From Micrococcaceae bacterium RIT 802 (lineage in GTDB: Bacteria > Actinomycetota > Actinomycetes > Actinomycetales > Micrococcaceae), in the NCBI GenBank assembly GCA_016892645.1, contig JAFEMX010000007.1, positions 1 to 64,000 on the forward strand: a stretch of DNA of 64,000 nt, read 5' to 3'. Position 1 is the first letter of the stretch. Each line of letters starts with the position of its first letter. The translations under genes and the position numbers were made by a program. Shown here piece after piece: positions 34,219 to 42,140 of the stretch. A model generated the notes under the pieces. That model saw only the letters and a list, made by a program, of their open reading frames with translations, was not told the origin of the DNA and ran no database searches.

Positions 34219-34772
34219 GCCGGCGCGACCCACACCCCGAACTTCCCGTCGACACCGACACCGACGCACTCGAGATCCCACCGCGCACCACCCGCCGGAG
34301 ACCTCCGCGCCAGATACTGCACCCCCGGCAATCGGACCGCCCGCTGCACCTGAGCCCGCCGCACGTGGGCGTGGTCCTGCTCGGCGGGATCTTCGGCACC
34401 GCCGCCCGCGAGGGCCTGACCCTCGCCGTCCCCGGCATCGGCGGGTTTCCCACCACGATCCTGGCGGTCAACATCGTCGGCGCGTTCCTGCTCGGGCTGC
34501 TGCTGGAGTCCCTGCTGCGGGCCGGGCACGACGGCGGTGCCCGGCGGACGCTGCGCCTGATGCTGGGCACGGGGTTTCTGGGCGGCTTCACCACCTACAG
34601 CACGTTCGCCGTCGACGCCGTCGAACTCTGGGGCGTGCCGGGAAGCGGCACGGCCGACCCGGCCGCCGGCGTCCTCCTGGTGCTCGCCACCGTCCTGGCA
34701 GGCGCCGTCGCGTCCTGGGCGGGCATTGCGGTGGCCGCCCGGTACCGTCCGCGCACGGAGGCGGGATCGTGA
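34215..34772 (+). CDS. crcB: Fluoride channel CrcB/Fluc homologue 1
   Basis: The 185-residue protein has a 45-residue polar Arg/Pro-rich N-terminal extension, then four hydrophobic helices. Fluc features include ILAVNIVGAFLLGLLLE (conserved Asn of helix 2) and the break GFLGGFTTYSTFAVDAV with the Phe box and central Na+ site Thr/Ser. It exports F-. It is coupled to tag upstream and to a second crcB downstream. Two different subunits in tandem suggest a heterodimeric channel, as in many Gram-positives. The N-terminal tail is unusual. Confidence 0.9.
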   Translation: MSRRDPHPELPVDTDTDALEIPPRTTRRRPPRQILHPRQSDRPLHLSPPHVGVVLLGGIFGTAAREGLTLAVPGIGGFPTTILAVNIVGAFLLGLLLESLLRAGHDGGARRTLRLMLGTGFLGGFTTYSTFAVDAVELWGVPGSGTADPAAGVLLVLATVLAGAVASWAGIAVAARYRPRTEAGS

Positions 34773-35155
34773 CCCCGTTGCTGTTCGCGTGCCTCTCCGT
34801 CGCCGGTGGTTGCGGCGCAGCTCTCCGGTTCTTCTTCGACGGCTGGGTCAAGGCCCACACCCGCGTCGCCTTCCCCGTGGGGACATGGTTGATCAACGTC
34901 TCCGGTTCCCTGGTCTTGGGCCTGTTGGCGGGACTCACCCTGGCCTTCGTGACACCAGAGCCTGTCTACCTCGTGGCGGGAACCGGATTCCTGGGCGGCT
35001 ACACGACGTTCAGCACGGCCAGCTTCGAGTCGGTGCGCCTGCTGCAAGAACGCCGGTACCTGGCCTCGTTGGCCAACGGGCCGGGCATGGCAGTGCTGTG
35101 CGTCGCGGCCGCGGGGCTGGGATACTGGGTCGGCCAGCTCACGTCGTGGGCATGA
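34769..35155 (+). CDS. crcB: Fluoride channel CrcB/Fluc homologue 2
   Basis: A 128-residue compact Fluc subunit with four helices, TWLINVSGSLVLGLLAG and GFLGGYTTFSTASFESV. The GTG start overlaps the crcB1 stop (GTGA). Fluc channels are dual-topology dimers; paired genes usually give oppositely inserted partners. No fluoride riboswitch was seen upstream of the operon (33481-33597). Confidence 0.92.
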   Translation: MTPLLFACLSVAGGCGAALRFFFDGWVKAHTRVAFPVGTWLINVSGSLVLGLLAGLTLAFVTPEPVYLVAGTGFLGGYTTFSTASFESVRLLQERRYLASLANGPGMAVLCVAAAGLGYWVGQLTSWA

Positions 35156-35404: not shown

Positions 35405-36724
35405 TCAGCCTTGCCGCCTGTAGTGCCCTTCGATCCGGCGCCCACCCCGCCGATGCGGCCCCACCCAGGTCGACGCCGCTCCGGGCTTCCAGGACCCGTC
35501 GACCATCGCCTGGGCATGGCGCATGCTCTCACCTTCGAACGCCGTTGCCATGGCTTCCAAGGCGTCGGGTTCCACCCCTGCGTTGACGGCCTCGACGCGC
35601 CATCCTGCGATGGCTTGGGCTACCCGCCGGATGCGTTCGATGGCCTCCGGGGCGGTGAGCCGGAACGTGCCACACTGCTCGACCAGCAGCCTGATGTCCT
35701 TCTGCGCCGGGTCGTCCTCCGATGTCAGGGGCGTGTCCGAGTGGCCGAAACGCTCGGGGTTCACGTCGAACGATGGTGCAAGCCTCCAGCCGTTGCCCAT
35801 ATGCAGGAGACCATGGTTGCGCATGTGGTCGTCGATGTTGTTGGCCATTGCCCCGAATGCGGCCCTGGAGAACAACTCGGCTGCATCCTCGGACGGGCTG
35901 GCCGAAATGGCTGCCACACGGGTGGCCAGGGTTGCGTAGTCCGGGTGTTCGAGCGGTTCAAGGGCGAAGGCGCTCCTGAAGCTCATGTACGGGATGCGGC
36001 GATATGCTTCACGGTCGAATCGTCTGGTCACGAAAATCGAGCTGCTTGGACCCAAGGGGATGATCCGGGACGGCTGGACCCGGATGCCGGCCTTGTGCTG
36101 GAGTCTGATCGCGGTCAGCTCCCACGCCGAGACGTCCCTCGTGTCGCTGGTTCGCGGGAATTTGGCCAGGTGGAGAGAGCCGTCGTCCTCGCGGACCCAG
36201 GCTTTGGGTTGCGCCCCTCCGGGCGAGGAGCCAACACCCACGAGGCGGCGGACCGCTTCGTCGACTACCCCGGTGTCGATGAATCGTTGTGCGGCCTCGG
36301 CGAGCATCGGGAGGTCCTGGACCCCGGCGCTCTGGGATCCGGCGGCGAGGAAGGTGCCGTCCTGCCGGAAGCGCAGTGCGCCCTGGCGGGTCTGGTCGTC
36401 CACCGCGAGGAGCCGGTCGATCTCGGTTGGTGCGTTGAACCGGCGGCCGGTGGCCTTGGCTTGCCTCCGGAGTTCGGCGTCCACGAGGGCGCGACCCCAC
36501 TGATCCGGTGCCGCGTCGTCGAACGCCCTGAAGGTCGTGCGGTGCGATGCAGGCGTGTGCGGACCGCGCTGCAGGGGCAAGTCCGGGGAGATGGCGAACG
36601 ATCGGGAGTCCGCGAGCCAGTCGTCCAGGTATGTGAACGTCATGGAGGAATGCTGGAAGCCGGGCCGGATGTCGATGGTGCAGGTGCCGGACTGCTGCTC
36701 CCCCATCCATATCTCGATGCTCAC
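35405..36724 (-). CDS. hipA: HipA-family serine/threonine kinase toxin
   Basis: A 439-residue HipA-type kinase. The N-terminal subdomain (about 1-110) is followed by VGVGSSPGGAQPKAWVRED (about 165-183; G-G-A-Q-P-K is the phosphate-binding/autophosphorylation loop). NNIDDHMRNHGLLH (about 297-310) gives the catalytic Asp and Asn, and PSFDVNPERFG is the DFG-like metal loop. HipA kinases phosphorylate aminoacyl-tRNA synthetases and induce dormancy. All key residues are present, so it should be active. Its GTG start overlaps the hipB stop (GTGA). Confidence 0.9.
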   Translation of the reverse strand: MSIEIWMGEQQSGTCTIDIRPGFQHSSMTFTYLDDWLADSRSFAISPDLPLQRGPHTPASHRTTFRAFDDAAPDQWGRALVDAELRRQAKATGRRFNAPTEIDRLLAVDDQTRQGALRFRQDGTFLAAGSQSAGVQDLPMLAEAAQRFIDTGVVDEAVRRLVGVGSSPGGAQPKAWVREDDGSLHLAKFPRTSDTRDVSAWELTAIRLQHKAGIRVQPSRIIPLGPSSSIFVTRRFDREAYRRIPYMSFRSAFALEPLEHPDYATLATRVAAISASPSEDAAELFSRAAFGAMANNIDDHMRNHGLLHMGNGWRLAPSFDVNPERFGHSDTPLTSEDDPAQKDIRLLVEQCGTFRLTAPEAIERIRRVAQAIAGWRVEAVNAGVEPDALEAMATAFEGESMRHAQAMVDGSWKPGAASTWVGPHRRGGRRIEGHYRRQG

Positions 36725-37002
36725 GCGTCCCTCCTGCGGGCTCGTTGACGGCCCAGGAGTGGCGCGCGGAGCTTGCCCAGGTCGGTTTCAAGCGGGTCCG
36801 TGGCACCGATCAGCCGTGGGGCGAGTCCAAGCACCGATGCCGCCGACATGAAGGACGCCATCTTCACACCCGGTTCGCCGCGTTCGATACGCCGCCATGT
36901 GGGCAGGGAGATGTCGGCCCGCTCGGCCGCCAACTCTTGGCTCAGGCCAAGCAGGATGCGCCACTGGCGCACGTGCTCCCCCAATTGCTCCAGTTCTTCC
37001 AT
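36721..37002 (-). CDS. hipB: HipB-type XRE antitoxin
   Basis: A 93-residue XRE repressor: EHVRQWRILLGLSQELAAERADISLPTWRRIERGEPG (split over about 9-45) is the HTH, followed by a hydrophobic dimer segment (FMSAASVLGLAPRLIG) and an Arg-rich tail. The ATG was chosen because TGAGGA stands nine bases upstream; a TTG-GTG pair three codons earlier is less likely. It binds its own promoter and HipA. Coupled to hipA. Confidence 0.9.
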   Translation of the reverse strand: MEELEQLGEHVRQWRILLGLSQELAAERADISLPTWRRIERGEPGVKMASFMSAASVLGLAPRLIGATDPLETDLGKLRAPLLGRQRARRRDA

Positions 37003-37022
37003 ATACACCAATCCTCAAAGGC

Positions 37023-37515: not shown

Positions 37516-38616
37516 TCAGCTGTTGACGGCGATCGCGTCCTTCAGCGCGGCAAGGATGAGCGCCACGGAGTCCTGGTTCGCGTTCGGGCCCATGAGCCCG
37601 ATCCGCCAGACCGTGGAGGCGTACTGGCCGACGCCGCCGCCGATCTCGATGGTGTAGCGCTCCAGCAGGTACTTGCGCACCGCAGCGGAGTCGACTCCTT
37701 CGGGGACCTTGACGGTGGTCAGCTGGGGCAGCCGGTAGCCGTCGGCGGCGAAGAGCTCCAGGCCCATCTCCTGCAGCCCCTCCTGCAGGGCCGTGCCGGC
37801 GGCGCGGTGGCGTTCGGTCACGGCGTCGAGCCCCTCGGCGAGGATCCGGTCGATGCCCGCCTCGAGGGAGGCGACCATGCCCACGGGCGCCGTGTGGTGG
37901 TAGGTGCGCTGGCCGCCGGCCGCACCGGTGGTGTAACCGCCCAGCAGCCCAAGGTCCAGGTACCAGGATTGGGGCTTCTGCACCCGTTGCTCGAAGGCGC
38001 GATCGGAGATGGTGAAGGGCGCCAGCCCGGGGGCAACACCGATGCACTTCTGCGTTCCCGCGTAGCCGATGTCGATCCCCCACTCGTCGGCCAGCACCGG
38101 CATGCCGCCGATGGAGGTAACGGCGTCGGCGATCAGCAGGGCATCGCCCTTGATGGCACCCAGGGCCGCCATGTCGGACAGGACTCCGGTGCTGGTCTCC
38201 GCGTGGACGGCGGCGATGACCTTGGGGTTCGGGTGTGCCGCGGCGACGCGTTCGGCGTCCACCGGCGTCCCGTACTCGTGGTCGACGCGCACCACCTCGG
38301 CGCCGACGCGGGAGGCGACCTCGCACATGCGCTCGCCAAAGAGGCCGTTGACGGCGATGACCGCGACGTCACCTGGCGAGATCGTGTTGACGAAGGCGGC
38401 CTCCATGCCGGCCGAGCCGGTGGCGCTCAGCGGAAGCGTCCGGGCATTCTCCGTGCCCCACAGGGTCCGCAGCCCGTCGCAGGTGCGGTCCATCCGGGCG
38501 ATGAACTCGGGGTCCAGGTGGCCCAGCAGCGGCAGGCCCAGGGCGGCGGTCGCCTCCGGATACGGGTTGCAGGGGCCGGGGCCGAAGAGATGGCGGGTGG
38601 GGACGATCTGCTGCAT
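37516..38616 (-). CDS. PLP-dependent alanine-glyoxylate/ureidoglycine-glyoxylate aminotransferase family
   Basis: A 366-residue class V aminotransferase fold. N-terminal FGPGPCNPYPEATAALGLPL, GSAGMEAAFVNTISPGD, DAVTSIGGMP (PLP-ring aspartate) and GYAGTQKCIGVAPGL with the Schiff-base lysine (about 196) are all present. Family members transaminate glyoxylate with alanine, serine or (S)-ureidoglycine (PucG). No purine-degradation genes are adjacent, so substrate is undecided. GGGAG precedes the ATG with good spacing. Confidence 0.87.
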   Translation of the reverse strand: MQQIVPTRHLFGPGPCNPYPEATAALGLPLLGHLDPEFIARMDRTCDGLRTLWGTENARTLPLSATGSAGMEAAFVNTISPGDVAVIAVNGLFGERMCEVASRVGAEVVRVDHEYGTPVDAERVAAAHPNPKVIAAVHAETSTGVLSDMAALGAIKGDALLIADAVTSIGGMPVLADEWGIDIGYAGTQKCIGVAPGLAPFTISDRAFEQRVQKPQSWYLDLGLLGGYTTGAAGGQRTYHHTAPVGMVASLEAGIDRILAEGLDAVTERHRAAGTALQEGLQEMGLELFAADGYRLPQLTTVKVPEGVDSAAVRKYLLERYTIEIGGGVGQYASTVWRIGLMGPNANQDSVALILAALKDAIAVNS

Positions 38617-38773
38617 GGATACTCCCTGGGTTCGGTGGAGCGGCCGCGGCCGCAGGAGGATGGGCTGTCCGTCCCCACCATATGCACGAAATGTCGCAGG
38701 GCGGAATCCACGTTTCACGATGGTGCCGCGACATGGCATTGCCAAGCCCGCGCAGCAGTTCTGGGATGGGGCG

Positions 38774-38983
38774 ATGAGCGAAGCAGTGAAGGGTCCCAGA
38801 TCGTATTTCCCCTCCATCGAGGCGAAGTATGGACATCCCATCGGCCATTGGATGACGGCGCTGGATGCCGTCCGGGACAAGAAGCACCTCGAACAGGTGA
38901 ACTGGCTCAAGACCGAACACGGCTTCGGCCACGGTCATGCCAACGCGCTGGTCCACGTATACCGGAACGAGAAGCAACCGTAG
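38774..38983 (+). CDS. DUF4287 small protein
   Basis: A 69-residue product matching the family core: KGPRSYFPSIEAKYGHPIGHW and LKTEHGFGHGHANALVHVY. Function unknown; members are small stand-alone cytoplasmic proteins or the N-terminal part of DUF5655 fusions. The start codon lies after GGATGGGG. It lies 62 bases before the polyketide synthase gene on the same strand, but is unlikely to be part of that pathway. Confidence 0.8.
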   Translation: MSEAVKGPRSYFPSIEAKYGHPIGHWMTALDAVRDKKHLEQVNWLKTEHGFGHGHANALVHVYRNEKQP

Positions 38984-39045
38984 CCGGCCAGCGAGGCCCA
39001 CGAAGTTCCTTTACGGTCGTTGCGGCCCGGGGATACGCTCGCCAC

Positions 39046-40260
39046 ATGCCGGTAATGATCAGGAACATCCAGACAGCCGTTCCCCCCACGATCCTGCATC
39101 AGGACCAGGCACGTGATGTCTTCGCCGCCCAACCGGGCCTGACCCGCCTGGGCCAACGACTGATCGCCACCTCCTTCAACTCGGCCGCCATCTCGACACG
39201 ACGCACCGCCGTTCCCGAGATGACCCTGGACGAACGCGTGGAGAACCCCGTGTTCTTCGACGCCGACTCCCGCCTGCTGCTGAGCCCGAGCACCAAGGTG
39301 CGCAACGAGGTCTTCGCCCGCGAGGCGGCCCCCCTGTTCATCGAGTCCGCCCGCAAGGCCCTGGAAGCCACCCCCGACCTGTCCGCAGCGGACGTCACCC
39401 ACGTCATCACGGTCTCCTGCACCGGGTTCTACAACCCGGGCCCCGACTACCAGATCGTCCGCGCCCTCGGCCTGAAGCCCTCCACCAAGCGCTCGCACTT
39501 CGGCTTCATGGGCTGCTATGCGGCCTTCCCTGCCCTGCGCGCGGCCAAGAGCTTCTGCGAGGCCGAACCCGACGCTGTCGTCCTGGTCGTGTGCGCCGAG
39601 CTGTGCTCCCTGCACGTACGCAGCTCCAACGACCCCGACACGATCATGGGTTCTGCCCTGTTCGCCGACGGGGCCGCCGCCGCCCTGGTCACGGCACGCC
39701 CGGCCGGGTCGGACGCCGGGCCCGGACTGCAACTGGACTTCTTCGAGACCGTGTTGACCCCCGTGGGCGAGGACGCCATGGCCTGGAACATCGGCGACGA
39801 GGGGTTCGAGATGGTGCTGGGCAGCTATGTCCCGCACATCATCGACGACCACGTCATCGGCGCCCTCGAGCCCCTGCTGGCCAATGACCCGACGGTCCCG
39901 GGCACGTATGCCGACATCGAGCACTGGGGCATCCATCCCGGCGGCCGTGCCATCCTGGACCGGGTCGAGAAGCGCCTGGGCCTGAGCGAGGAACAACTGG
40001 CGCCGGCCCGCAGGGTCCTGCACGACTACGGCAACATGTCCAGTGCGACCGTGCTGTTCGTCCTCAAGGACATCCTCGAGGGGGCAGGCACGGCGTCCGG
40101 CGAGCGCGTGTGCTCGATGGCCTTCGGCCCGGGGCTGACGGTGGAGACCGCACTCATGACGCTGGTCCCCGGGGCTTCCGGGGGCGGTGGGGATGCGGCC
40201 GCCGGGCATGCCGGCCGGCGACCAGCGGTGGAGGCCGCGGCTGCCGGAACCCGGCGTTAG
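39046..40260 (+). CDS. Type III polyketide synthase
   Basis: A 404-residue thiolase-fold homodimeric synthase of the chalcone-synthase superfamily; condenses malonyl-CoA units onto an acyl-CoA starter without an ACP. Catalytic triad: Cys in GFMGCYAAFPALRA (about 161), His in EHWGIHPGGRAI (about 307) and Asn in YGNMSSATVLF (about 338). The C-terminal 30 residues are a Gly/Ala-rich tail beyond the fold. Start ATG gives MPVMIRNIQTAVPP; an ATG three codons on is possible. First gene of a three-gene operon with a methyltransferase and an FAD monooxygenase. Starter length and ring type cannot be read from the sequence. Confidence 0.9.
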   Translation: MPVMIRNIQTAVPPTILHQDQARDVFAAQPGLTRLGQRLIATSFNSAAISTRRTAVPEMTLDERVENPVFFDADSRLLLSPSTKVRNEVFAREAAPLFIESARKALEATPDLSAADVTHVITVSCTGFYNPGPDYQIVRALGLKPSTKRSHFGFMGCYAAFPALRAAKSFCEAEPDAVVLVVCAELCSLHVRSSNDPDTIMGSALFADGAAAALVTARPAGSDAGPGLQLDFFETVLTPVGEDAMAWNIGDEGFEMVLGSYVPHIIDDHVIGALEPLLANDPTVPGTYADIEHWGIHPGGRAILDRVEKRLGLSEEQLAPARRVLHDYGNMSSATVLFVLKDILEGAGTASGERVCSMAFGPGLTVETALMTLVPGASGGGGDAAAGHAGRRPAVEAAAAGTRR

Positions 40261-40269
40261 GCCGCTCCG

Positions 40270-40968
40270 GTGCTGCGCGAGGAGACCATCCTCGAGGAGA
40301 TGGATCGCTCCGACTGCGATCCGGTCCTGCTCCGCCGGACCTATGCCCAGTTCCCGCTGGTCAATGCCTTCGTCTCCGGGTGGGGCGGGCTCTACCGGGA
40401 ACTGATCCGTCCCGCGCTTCCCACCCACCGACGGGCCGGCATTCTGGACATCGGGTGCGGGGGCGGGGACATCACCGCGGCCCTGGCCCGGCGGGCACGG
40501 CGCGATGGATTCGACGTCCACGTGACCGGCATCGATCCCGATGAGCGGGCCCACCGCTATGCGGCGACGGCCCACAGCCACCGTGGCAATCCCCGCCTCG
40601 AGTTCCGCCGGGCCACCAGTGCGGACCTGGTCGCCGCCGGGGAGACCTTCGATGTGGTGGTTTCCAACCACGTGCTGCACCATCTCGGGGAGGCCGAACT
40701 GGACGGCCTGCTCGCCGATTCCGTGGCGCTGGCCCGCGGCGTCGCCGTGCACAGCGACATCCTGCGCTCCCGTGCCGCGCTGCTGCTTTTCGGTGCGGCA
40801 ACGCTGCCGCTGGCGCGCACGTCGTTCATCCGACGCGATGGCCTGACCTCCATTCGCCGCAGCTACCTTCCGGAGGAGCTCCAGGCCGTGGTGCCGCCTG
40901 CCTGGCGGGTGGTCCGGCGACGTCCCTTCAGGAACCTGCTGGTCTACCGTCCCGAGCCATGGCCGTGA
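40270..40968 (+). CDS. SAM-dependent methyltransferase of the polyketide operon
   Basis: A 232-residue class I methyltransferase: motif I ILDIGCGGGDITAALARRA (about 58-76), motif II TGIDPDERAHRYA, and VVSNHVLHHLGEAEL (motif III region, about 131-145). Resembles UbiE/phenolic O- or C-methyltransferases. GTG start nine bases after the PKS stop; its end overlaps the next gene by ten bases. Probably methylates the ring made by the PKS. Confidence 0.87.
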   Translation: MLREETILEEMDRSDCDPVLLRRTYAQFPLVNAFVSGWGGLYRELIRPALPTHRRAGILDIGCGGGDITAALARRARRDGFDVHVTGIDPDERAHRYAATAHSHRGNPRLEFRRATSADLVAAGETFDVVVSNHVLHHLGEAELDGLLADSVALARGVAVHSDILRSRAALLLFGAATLPLARTSFIRRDGLTSIRRSYLPEELQAVVPPAWRVVRRRPFRNLLVYRPEPWP

Positions 40969-42140
40969 TCGACGTCGTCATCGCCGGTGGCGGCCCCAGC
41001 GGCCTGGCACTGGCCGCGCTGCTGCTCCAATCCGGGATCAGCGTCCGCGTGTTGGAGGCCCGGGACTCCCCCGGCACCCATTCGCGGGCCATCGGCCTGC
41101 ATCCGCCGGCCCTCGACGTGCTCGACGCCGCGGGCGTCGGGGAGGCGGCCGTCGCGGCAGGGGTCCGCATCCGCCGCGGCCTCGGCCTGGCCGACGGGAA
41201 GATGATCGCGTCCATGGACTTCGGGGCGCTGCCCGGCCGGCACCGCTATGTCCTCTCCCTGCCCCAGGCCCACACCGTGCGGCTGCTGGGGGAACGGGTC
41301 CGGGACCTGGACGCCGGGGCGCTTCTGCGCGGCGCACGGCTGGAAACGTTCCGCCAGGACGACGACGGGGTCAGGGTCGCCTTCACCACCGCATCCCCCG
41401 CACACGGCACCGCGGTAGCCGCCGAGCGGAGCCGGCACACACTGCGAGCGCGGTTCCTCGTCGGCGCCGACGGGGTGAACTCCACCGTGCGCACGCTGCT
41501 CGGGGAGGCCTTTGCAGGTCTCAGCTACCGCGATGAGTACATCATGGGCGACTACCCCGACACCACGGAATTCGGATCCACTGCCGCCTTGATCCTGCAT
41601 CGGGAAGGCATCGTCGAGTCCTTCCCCCTCCCCGGGGGCCTGCGGCGTTGGGTCGCGTGGCGGCGGCCGGACGAGCCGGTGGACCTGCCTGGACTCGTCC
41701 TGCGGCGCACCGGCCACATCGCCGATCGCGGGTCCGCCAGCATGCTCAACCGGTTTCGCTGCTCCCGACGCAGCGTGCGGCGCATGGCGGCGGGCCGGGT
41801 GGTCCTCATCGGCGATGCGGCACACGAGGTCAGCCCCATCGGCGGCCAGGGCATGGCGTTGGGGCTGATGGACGCGGCGGCCCTGGCACCGCTGCTGCGC
41901 CATGAATTCGGTGCCGGCGGTCGCGGCGCCTCCGCCGGAGGTTTCACCGACTTCTCCGCCGACCGTCTGCGCGCCGCCGCCCGCGCGGGGCGGCAGGCCC
42001 ACGTCAACATGATGCTCGGGCGCCCGTTGCCGCGCGCCACGGACGCCGTGCGGCGTCGGACGGTCGCCGGCCTGGCCTCCCATCCGGGCCTCCTGGATGC
42101 GGTGGCCCACCGGTTCACGATGAGCCATGGCTTCCGCTGA
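40959..42140 (+). CDS. FAD-dependent aromatic-ring monooxygenase of the polyketide operon
   Basis: A 393-residue class A flavoprotein hydroxylase (PHBH fold). FAD/NADPH motifs: VVIAGGGPSGLALAALLLQSG (about 6-26), the DG motif FLVGADGVNSTVR (about 165-177), and GRVVLIGDAAHEVSPIGGQGM (about 283-303). Expected to hydroxylate the phenolic product, for example to a hydroquinone or quinone. Shares ten bases with the methyltransferase gene, so expression is tightly coupled. Confidence 0.9.
   Translation: MAVIDVVIAGGGPSGLALAALLLQSGISVRVLEARDSPGTHSRAIGLHPPALDVLDAAGVGEAAVAAGVRIRRGLGLADGKMIASMDFGALPGRHRYVLSLPQAHTVRLLGERVRDLDAGALLRGARLETFRQDDDGVRVAFTTASPAHGTAVAAERSRHTLRARFLVGADGVNSTVRTLLGEAFAGLSYRDEYIMGDYPDTTEFGSTAALILHREGIVESFPLPGGLRRWVAWRRPDEPVDLPGLVLRRTGHIADRGSASMLNRFRCSRRSVRRMAAGRVVLIGDAAHEVSPIGGQGMALGLMDAAALAPLLRHEFGAGGRGASAGGFTDFSADRLRAAARAGRQAHVNMMLGRPLPRATDAVRRRTVAGLASHPGLLDAVAHRFTMSHGFR

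Follow-up and report, generated by a model that had tools for sequence, protein, structure and literature searches.

A conserved three-gene type III polyketide operon of Micrococcaceae, predicted to make a decorated phenolic lipid, and its relatives in distant phyla

Results

A type III polyketide synthase operon in a Micrococcaceae genome

We analysed a stretch of 64,000 nucleotides (nt) from Micrococcaceae bacterium RIT 802 (GenBank assembly GCA_016892645.1, contig JAFEMX010000007.1, positions 1 to 64,000 of the forward strand; the window), in which three + strand genes spanning 39046-42140 form an operon around a type III polyketide synthase (PKS). From the open reading frames (ORFs), the gene order is PKS, methyltransferase (MT), FAD hydroxylase. 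The PKS gene (39046..40260) encodes 404 amino acids with the Pfam domains Chal_sti_synt_N (2.2e-30) and Chal_sti_synt_C (1.3e-27). It is followed after a gap of 9 nt by a gene with a GTG start (40270..40968) for a class I S-adenosylmethionine MT of the PRK06202 family (232 amino acids; Methyltransf_25, 1.2e-16), which overlaps by 10 nt with the gene for an FAD-dependent aromatic hydroxylase of the UbiH / PHBH-like group (40959..42140; 393 amino acids; FAD_binding_3, PF01494, 9.8e-45). The original prediction for this DNA, made from its letters, had proposed exactly such a synthase, methyltransferase and FAD hydroxylase operon, and the ORFs, Pfam and NCBIfam confirm the positions and the order. 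Its further claim that a soluble class I MT replaces the ICMT type agrees with the domains found by Pfam and NCBIfam, which are of class I only.

The host genome (G000, contig C36, 3.87 Mb) contains a single match to the window PKS and no ICMT-family match, both at E 0.001. It encodes one YceI protein and one enzyme of MenG/UbiE type that scores over the cut-off, each away from the operon, and there is no UbiE gene among the three operon genes.

Conservation of the operon

Matches to the PKS (E 1e-60 or better) were found in 99 of 149 Micrococcaceae genomes, covering 21 of 32 genera, and matches to the MT (1e-30) in 93 of the 149, all of them within the 99 PKS-bearing genomes. The six genomes with a PKS and no MT (G008, G060, G105, G125, G142, G156) all belong to one genus (g7), and in G008 (locus L126) the FAD gene directly follows the PKS gene with no MT between them. 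In a set of 59 relatives that overlaps with the 149 genomes, the PRK06202 model passed its cut-off in 25, and each of these is one of the 26 that have a close PKS. A scan of genome contigs, from which the best 80 of 90 confirmed relatives were retained (56 of them actinobacterial), gave a similar result at the level of the locus: by tblastn (1e-8), PKS, MT and FAD hydroxylase were all found in 53 of the 56 actinobacterial loci, and the arrangement is therefore not a matter of chance. Of the three incomplete loci, L037 lies on a contig that breaks off within the FAD gene, L073 gave no FAD hit, and L075 has a truncated PKS and neither an MT nor an FAD hit. Seven Deinococcus plasmid records also match the PKS and the MT, and both of those inspected carry the complete trio. 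In Deinococcus radiodurans isolate DRR11 (L101), the PKS, MT and FAD genes are plasmid-borne.

Clustering of the genes around 51 actinobacterial loci gave no recurrent extra neighbour of the operon, the best being present in 9 of 51. The absence of a dedicated transporter or regulator, claimed in the original prediction, agrees with this. An association with cytochrome bd was considered and rejected: cydA is present in 134 of the 149 genomes, being missing in 9 of the 99 with the PKS and 6 of the 50 without it, so that no link was seen across the 149 genomes.

Type III PKS clusters are reported to be a frequent class in an antiSMASH survey of Micrococcaceae, where a cluster of one isolate, of unconfirmed family, was given 100% similarity to alkylresorcinol (PMC11078813). 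The operon is thus ordinary in its family, real and conserved, and of a known kind; type III PKS clusters of Micrococcaceae had already been noted, and the window operon has relatives in distant phyla.

Two operon types distinguished by the methyltransferase and the PKS clade

The operon shares the order PKS, MT, flavin enzyme, and a Trp at the position of ArsB Trp281, with srsABC of Streptomyces griseus and pkqABC of M. smegmatis; the same order is reported for polyketide quinone (PkQ) operons (PMC9927152), and homology to srs has been described for the M. smegmatis cluster (PMC5916927). Within the same taxonomic order as the host, 11 of 59 genomes hold an srs-like PKS that is 30-36% identical to the window PKS. 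These srs-like operons differ from the window operon in having a membrane MT of the ICMT type and a separate PKS clade. All four MTs scanned, from four of the 11 loci, are ICMT proteins (PF04140, 2.4e-28 to 8.1e-26), and the one srs-like flavoenzyme scanned (L113) had its best match, below the cut-off, in a model of the geranylgeranyl-reductase superfamily.

In a tree of 57 PKSs, the 11 srs-like sequences lie on one side of a branch with 100/100 support and the window PKS on the other. The window PKS joins other Micrococcales with support of 92/81 and, at the next level, Deinococcus (100/99), and this group adjoins sequences of Kiritimatiellota, Verrucomicrobiota and deltaproteobacterial type (100/99); alphaproteobacterial, planctomycete and Psychrobacter PKSs lie further out. 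The tree is to be read with the long branches of L106 and the srs-like rows and the odd composition of L103, L090, L079 and L110 in mind, and with srs represented by these srs-like sequences, SrsA and PkqA themselves being outside it. From these comparisons two operon types can be distinguished, ICMT and PRK06202, by their MT and their PKS clade; the window operon is of the PRK06202 type, which is widespread. Direct orthology to srsABC is rejected on two grounds, the ICMT test and the PKS tree. The likeness to srsABC drawn in the original prediction consequently stands for gene order and fails for kinship, and its caution that the product may differ was judged right, the MT being class I rather than ICMT.

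Residues of the PKS suggest an alkylresorcinol core

The window PKS has the catalytic triad Cys157-His297-Asn330, and by alignment its Trp247 occupies the position of ArsB Trp281, which corresponds to Gly256 of CHS. Among 129 aligned PKS rows (120 distinct; the window is present twice, as WIN and L001), this Trp and the catalytic Cys are present in 129 and the His and the Asn in 128 each. The sole row without the catalytic His and Asn is L104, a Microbacterium plasmid copy that looks broken. As a separate observation, the whole trio of this plasmid (L104:5001-7981) seems broken: the PKS has no gene in the incomplete table of PLSDB, and the MT match runs over two listed genes. Among the control sequences from the PDB, Steely1 shares the Trp, whereas PKS18 and the brown-algal 4b0n have Leu in this column and CHS/STS have Gly. 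Trp at this site has been reported for ArsB, PkqA, SrsA, FtpA, PKS10 and PKS11 and tied to resorcinol formation (PMC9927152, PMC5916927), so its presence in all aligned PKSs favours an alkylresorcinol. The srs-like PKSs share the Trp (11 of 11), and it therefore supports a resorcinol without supporting one operon type above the other.

A second residue, Cys187, aligns by profile with PKS18 Cys205, the residue altered in PDB entry 1tee (C205F), and is kept in all rows of two alignments (14/14 and 45/45). PKS18 Cys205 gates a long acyl tunnel, and Cys187 accordingly favours a long-chain starter. The predicted structure of the PKS (pLDDT 90.5, with a low-confidence tail at residues 380-404) retrieved type III PKS folds, with Steely1 at the top (Z 49.6) and biphenyl synthase and many others tied. 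Because rows within 1 Z of Steely1 count as tied, the fold ranking is silent on the product. Taken together, the residues make it likely that the PKS would form an alkylresorcinol core, in keeping with the alkylresorcinol-type synthase of the original prediction, which the triad and Trp247 fit.

As a side observation on the starter, a Sphingobium plasmid (L107:3554-4986) carries genes for a phosphopantetheine-binding, ACP-like protein and a beta-ketoacyl synthase directly upstream of its PKS, and these may supply an acyl starter.

The predicted fold of the methyltransferase resembles ring C-methyltransferases

The window MT matches NCBIfam NF004851/PRK06202 with 300.7 bits, over the cut-off of 243. 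Its predicted structure (pLDDT 96.0) has NovO (Z 20.4, rmsd 2.8, 206 aligned) and CouO (Z 20.1, rmsd 2.6, 204 aligned) as its nearest solved folds, the two being tied. They are followed by Coq5 (Z 18.3), BamL/BpumL (18.0-17.8), CmoA (17.8) and the O-methyltransferase UbiG (16.2); Foldseek's own ranking places other methyltransferases ahead. NovO and CouO methylate ring carbons, and Coq5 is the C-methyltransferase of ubiquinone synthesis.

After strand 4 the MT has a motif, N133-H134-x-L136-H137-H138-L139, that is invariant in 45 of 45 sequences. CouO uses His117, His120 and Arg121 (PMC5289526), and H134-x-x-H137-H138 of the window MT resembles His117-x-x-His120-Arg121 as a motif match in a similar place, CouO itself being outside the alignment. 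The two known enzymes differ from the window MT in their 16-17% identity to it and their coumarin substrate, and CouO Arg121 would correspond to His138. The choice between carbon and oxygen in such methyltransferases depends on substrate placement (2026 paper, PMC13109631). Since the model lies nearest to NovO and CouO, ring C-methylation is favoured, and with moderate confidence we predict that the MT methylates a ring carbon and not an oxygen.

The third enzyme and the nearest described operons

The FAD protein matches the Ubi-OHases model TIGR01988 (4.3e-30) below its cut-off, and its named relatives in the PDB are mostly flavin monooxygenases. It is quite likely to hydroxylate the ring.

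The nearest described operons appear to be hidABC of cyanobacteria, which makes hierridin, and a planctomycete operon. The former has a type III PKS, a methyltransferase and an oxidoreductase in common with the window, and one of its two reported orders, found in one group, is hidC, hidA, hidB (PMC8086630); kinship with the window at the protein level may be drawn only via the planctomycete type. For the mtr-fdo-t3pks operon of Gimesia maris, the PKS alone gave C15/C17 alkylresorcinols in C. glutamicum, ring-methylated forms appeared upon adding mtr and fdo, and the MT is a probable C-methyltransferase acting on alkylresorcinol (PMC10896814). The planctomycete operon thus has the same three activities, but in the order MT-FAD-PKS. 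It was compared by way of the Paludisphaera operon, of the same order, whose PKS shares 39% identity with that of the window and falls outside its clade.

Against PRK06202, the Deinococcus MT reaches 334.5 bits, the Paludisphaera MT 232.4 and six others 107.6-161.8; the PRK06202-like MTs beside the alphaproteobacterial, planctomycete and Psychrobacter PKSs (107.6-232.4 bits) are below the cut-off. The PKSs of these three groups, which belong to the same gene set, are 37-41% identical to that of the window.

Ubiquinone-type genes beside distant PKS homologues

In 24 loci from other phyla (L076-L100 except L095), most of them metagenome-assembled, the PKS is 43-50% identical to the window PKS. 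By tblastn, UbiE was found in 15 of them, YceI in 14, an ICMT-like domain in eight, MMPL in six and a U32 protein in four, while 11 loci had both the window-type FAD hydroxylase and the window-type MT and the others had neither. When the 22 longer loci were clustered, UbiE appeared in 12, YceI in 14 and MMPL in six, and, by reading, a response regulator in 10 and a kinase in nine. The partner families were checked by Pfam and NCBIfam in example loci: the UbiE of L076 scored over the TIGR01934 cut-off (173.9 vs 158.35) and that of L077 just under it (153.3), and L079 carries a fragment of a UbiG-like MT (1.8e-23, under the cut-off).

Several of these loci have fused genes. The ICMT-like domain is joined without a stop to the FAD hydroxylase in L076 (7616-9595), L080, L081, L086 and L099, and the profile matches of this fused domain are all weak (PEMT and DUF1295; MddA under the cut-off). 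In L078 (1684-4020), a single open frame of 779 codons fuses the PKS to the FAD hydroxylase.

The hydroxylase itself varies. Four loci, none of which has the window-type FAD hydroxylase, encode a PF01136 U32 protein with ten invariant cysteines (L077:10210-11457, L087:7005-8246, L089:3401-4639 and L092:4019-5254; three identified by profile, L092 by tblastn at 70% identity). These loci also hold the PKS and UbiE, and the U32 protein is absent from all 11 loci with the window-type FAD hydroxylase. The exchange of U32 for FAD is a correlation across four related loci and requires two changes on the PKS tree. UbiU and UbiV, the oxygen-independent hydroxylases of ubiquinone synthesis, are U32 proteins, and by analogy the U32 protein is a possible candidate for an oxygen-independent hydroxylase. 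Another four of the 24 loci have a different flavoenzyme upstream, identified by profile in L079 and L084 and only from reading and a four-locus cluster in L090 and L094. In the remaining five no hydroxylase was found; of these, L082, L083, L091 and L098 break off close to the PKS, whereas L085 does not.

Upstream region and surroundings of the operon

Upstream of the PKS gene, on the + strand, a promoter-like pair at 39010..39039 consists of a -35-like TTTACG (39010-39015), an 18-nt spacer and a -10-like TACGCT (39034-39039), which ends 6 nt before the PKS ATG, as a leaderless mRNA would show. Among 42 related upstream regions, the pattern [TA]ANNNT ends 5-8 nt before the ATG in 35 and occurs at eleven other offsets in 0-4 of the 42; two -35-like forms are present, TTTAC in 17 and ATTGT/TTGTC/TTGCC in 23. 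The stricter pattern TANNNT was found in 19 of 46 regions, and the wider one was chosen post hoc after its misses had been viewed, with L064, L068, L070, L101 and L102 dropped and the window added. As the pattern was widened after looking and the regions are related, the data are no more than suggestive of a leaderless PKS gene across the window group.

Two neighbours were rejected as parts of the operon. With a piece of a small + strand ORF ending at 38983, tblastn matched the window locus alone, and an aminotransferase gene on the minus strand (37516-38910) matched only L001, L004, L005, L029 and L030 (both at 1e-8). Further upstream, a HipA-like kinase and a HipB-like HTH protein are encoded on the minus strand (35405-37011), a possible toxin-antitoxin unit, and at about 34300-35155 on the plus strand two consecutive short membrane-protein-like frames resemble, by eye only, a CrcB/FluC fluoride-channel pair.

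Discussion

The gene set suggests, with moderate confidence, that the operon makes a decorated phenolic lipid, namely a methylated and hydroxylated alkylresorcinol or alkylquinone. In the pathway that we propose, the PKS would take a long-chain acyl-CoA or acyl-ACP and add three malonyl-CoA units, and an aldol ring closure would then give a 5-alkylresorcinol. The class I MT would put a methyl group on the ring, likelier on the carbon beside a phenol, as CouO and NovO do, than on oxygen. The FAD enzyme would hydroxylate the ring to a methylated alkyl-hydroxyresorcinol, which could oxidise to an alkylquinone; the last two steps may occur in either order. The end product would remain in the membrane, and a membrane lipid is a plausible product of these genes. 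A redox role for it as a quinone is plausible, although we hold it to be somewhat doubtful. The strengths given here to the core, the hydroxylation, the C-methylation and the redox role are judgements and were not computed.

The occurrence of UbiE, YceI, MMPL, flavoenzyme fusions and U32 proteins near the homologues suggests a ubiquinone-like decoration of the ring for the PKS family. At the window itself, such quinone-type decoration is an inference, because the operon has just three genes: its FAD hydroxylase matches the Ubi-OHases model below the cut-off, and UbiE and the UbiG-like MT adjoin the distant PKS homologues, not the window operon. Ubiquinone also differs from the predicted product, whose ring would be polyketide-made and without a prenyl chain. 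We put forward, as a possibility that we consider rather doubtful as a whole, a polyketide route to ubiquinone-like quinones of the membrane that is separate from srs/PkQ and of which the window operon would be the smallest version. Larger versions, in genomes of Kiritimatiellota, Verrucomicrobiota and Desulfuromonadales type, would add UbiE, ICMT- or UbiG-like MTs, YceI (putatively quinone-binding) and an MMPL exporter in varying combinations. The hydroxylase would be swappable between an FAD monooxygenase, a geranylgeranyl-reductase-type flavoenzyme and a U32 protein rich in cysteines, the last in some genomes of deltaproteobacterial type, where it may hydroxylate without oxygen like UbiU/UbiV. 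No open-licence PMC paper was found that connects YceI and MMPL with a type III PKS, UbiU with a type III polyketide and quinone, or a type III PKS with Arthrobacter and methoxyhydroquinone, which is not proof of absence.

Several observations weigh against the proposed chemistry or its quinone extension. The ubiquinone-type partners do not recur beside the operon in the 51 actinobacterial loci, hits to the window-type FAD hydroxylase and MT are missing from 13 of the 24 non-actinobacterial loci, and, with no link between cydA and the PKS, a low-oxygen role is unsupported. The six PKS-bearing genomes without the MT imply that the MT is dispensable. At only 37-41% identity between the PKSs, the product chemistry is carried over a distance. 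As for C-methylation, the Z of 18.3 for Coq5 is tied with those of BamL/BpumL and CmoA, enzymes that do not methylate ring carbons; the sequence profile ranks other kinds of MT first, with the HHL occurring there too; and UbiG is the second-ranked NCBIfam hit, far below its cut-off. HidA, from the most thoroughly studied operon of this sort, is reported to O-methylate, and Trp is not a clean marker of a resorcinol, as the Trp-bearing PKS11 appears as an alpha-pyrone synthase (both PMC10896814).

A redox version of the proposed pathway, overlapping with it, is that the product is a PkQ, an alternative respiratory carrier as in the M. smegmatis and Streptomyces clusters, made with a different MT. 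The gene order and the Trp shared with the PkQ operons (PMC9927152) and the ubiquinone-type decoration enzymes beside the homologues point to it. The M. smegmatis cluster is, however, the one described as an srs homologue (PMC5916927), and the srs-like clade is separate; there is no association with cydA, and the host has a normal menaquinone-type methyltransferase, hence no need for such a carrier is shown. We therefore consider a PkQ rather unlikely.

Alternatively, the operon might make a hierridin-like, O-methylated phenolic membrane lipid with a structural or antioxidant function and no quinone or redox role, its MT methylating phenol oxygens as HidA does. The hid operons have the same gene set, with the order hidC, hidA, hidB among those reported, and the reported activity of HidA, the UbiG hit and the UbiG fold (Z 16.2), as well as the lack of a cydA association, are consistent with such a lipid; yet the two best folds of the MT are C-methyltransferases, and UbiE, YceI and the U32 protein near the distant homologues point to quinone chemistry, so that we regard this product as unlikely, and slightly more so than a PkQ. 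A small aromatic or a pyrone (DpgA-, CHS- or PKS18-like) instead of an alkylresorcinol is improbable: DpgA is the best NCBIfam model for the PKS, CHS, pyrone synthase and PKS18 are among its closest folds, and PKS11 bears the same Trp, but the identity with DpgA is rejected at 162 bits, far under the cut-off of 425, no other DPG enzyme was found by Pfam and NCBIfam among the seven window proteins scanned, and the PKS departs from CHS at Trp247 and Cys187 and from PKS18 at Trp247.

Returning to the decorated alkylresorcinol or alkylquinone as the favoured product, the split between ICMT and PRK06202 operons gives testable products, O-methylated with an SrsB-like MT versus the predicted ring C-methylated form with the window type. 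Should the wider proposal hold, the clusters with UbiE, YceI and U32 proteins would open to testing a second route to membrane quinones, one based on polyketides, and with it a version that needs no oxygen.

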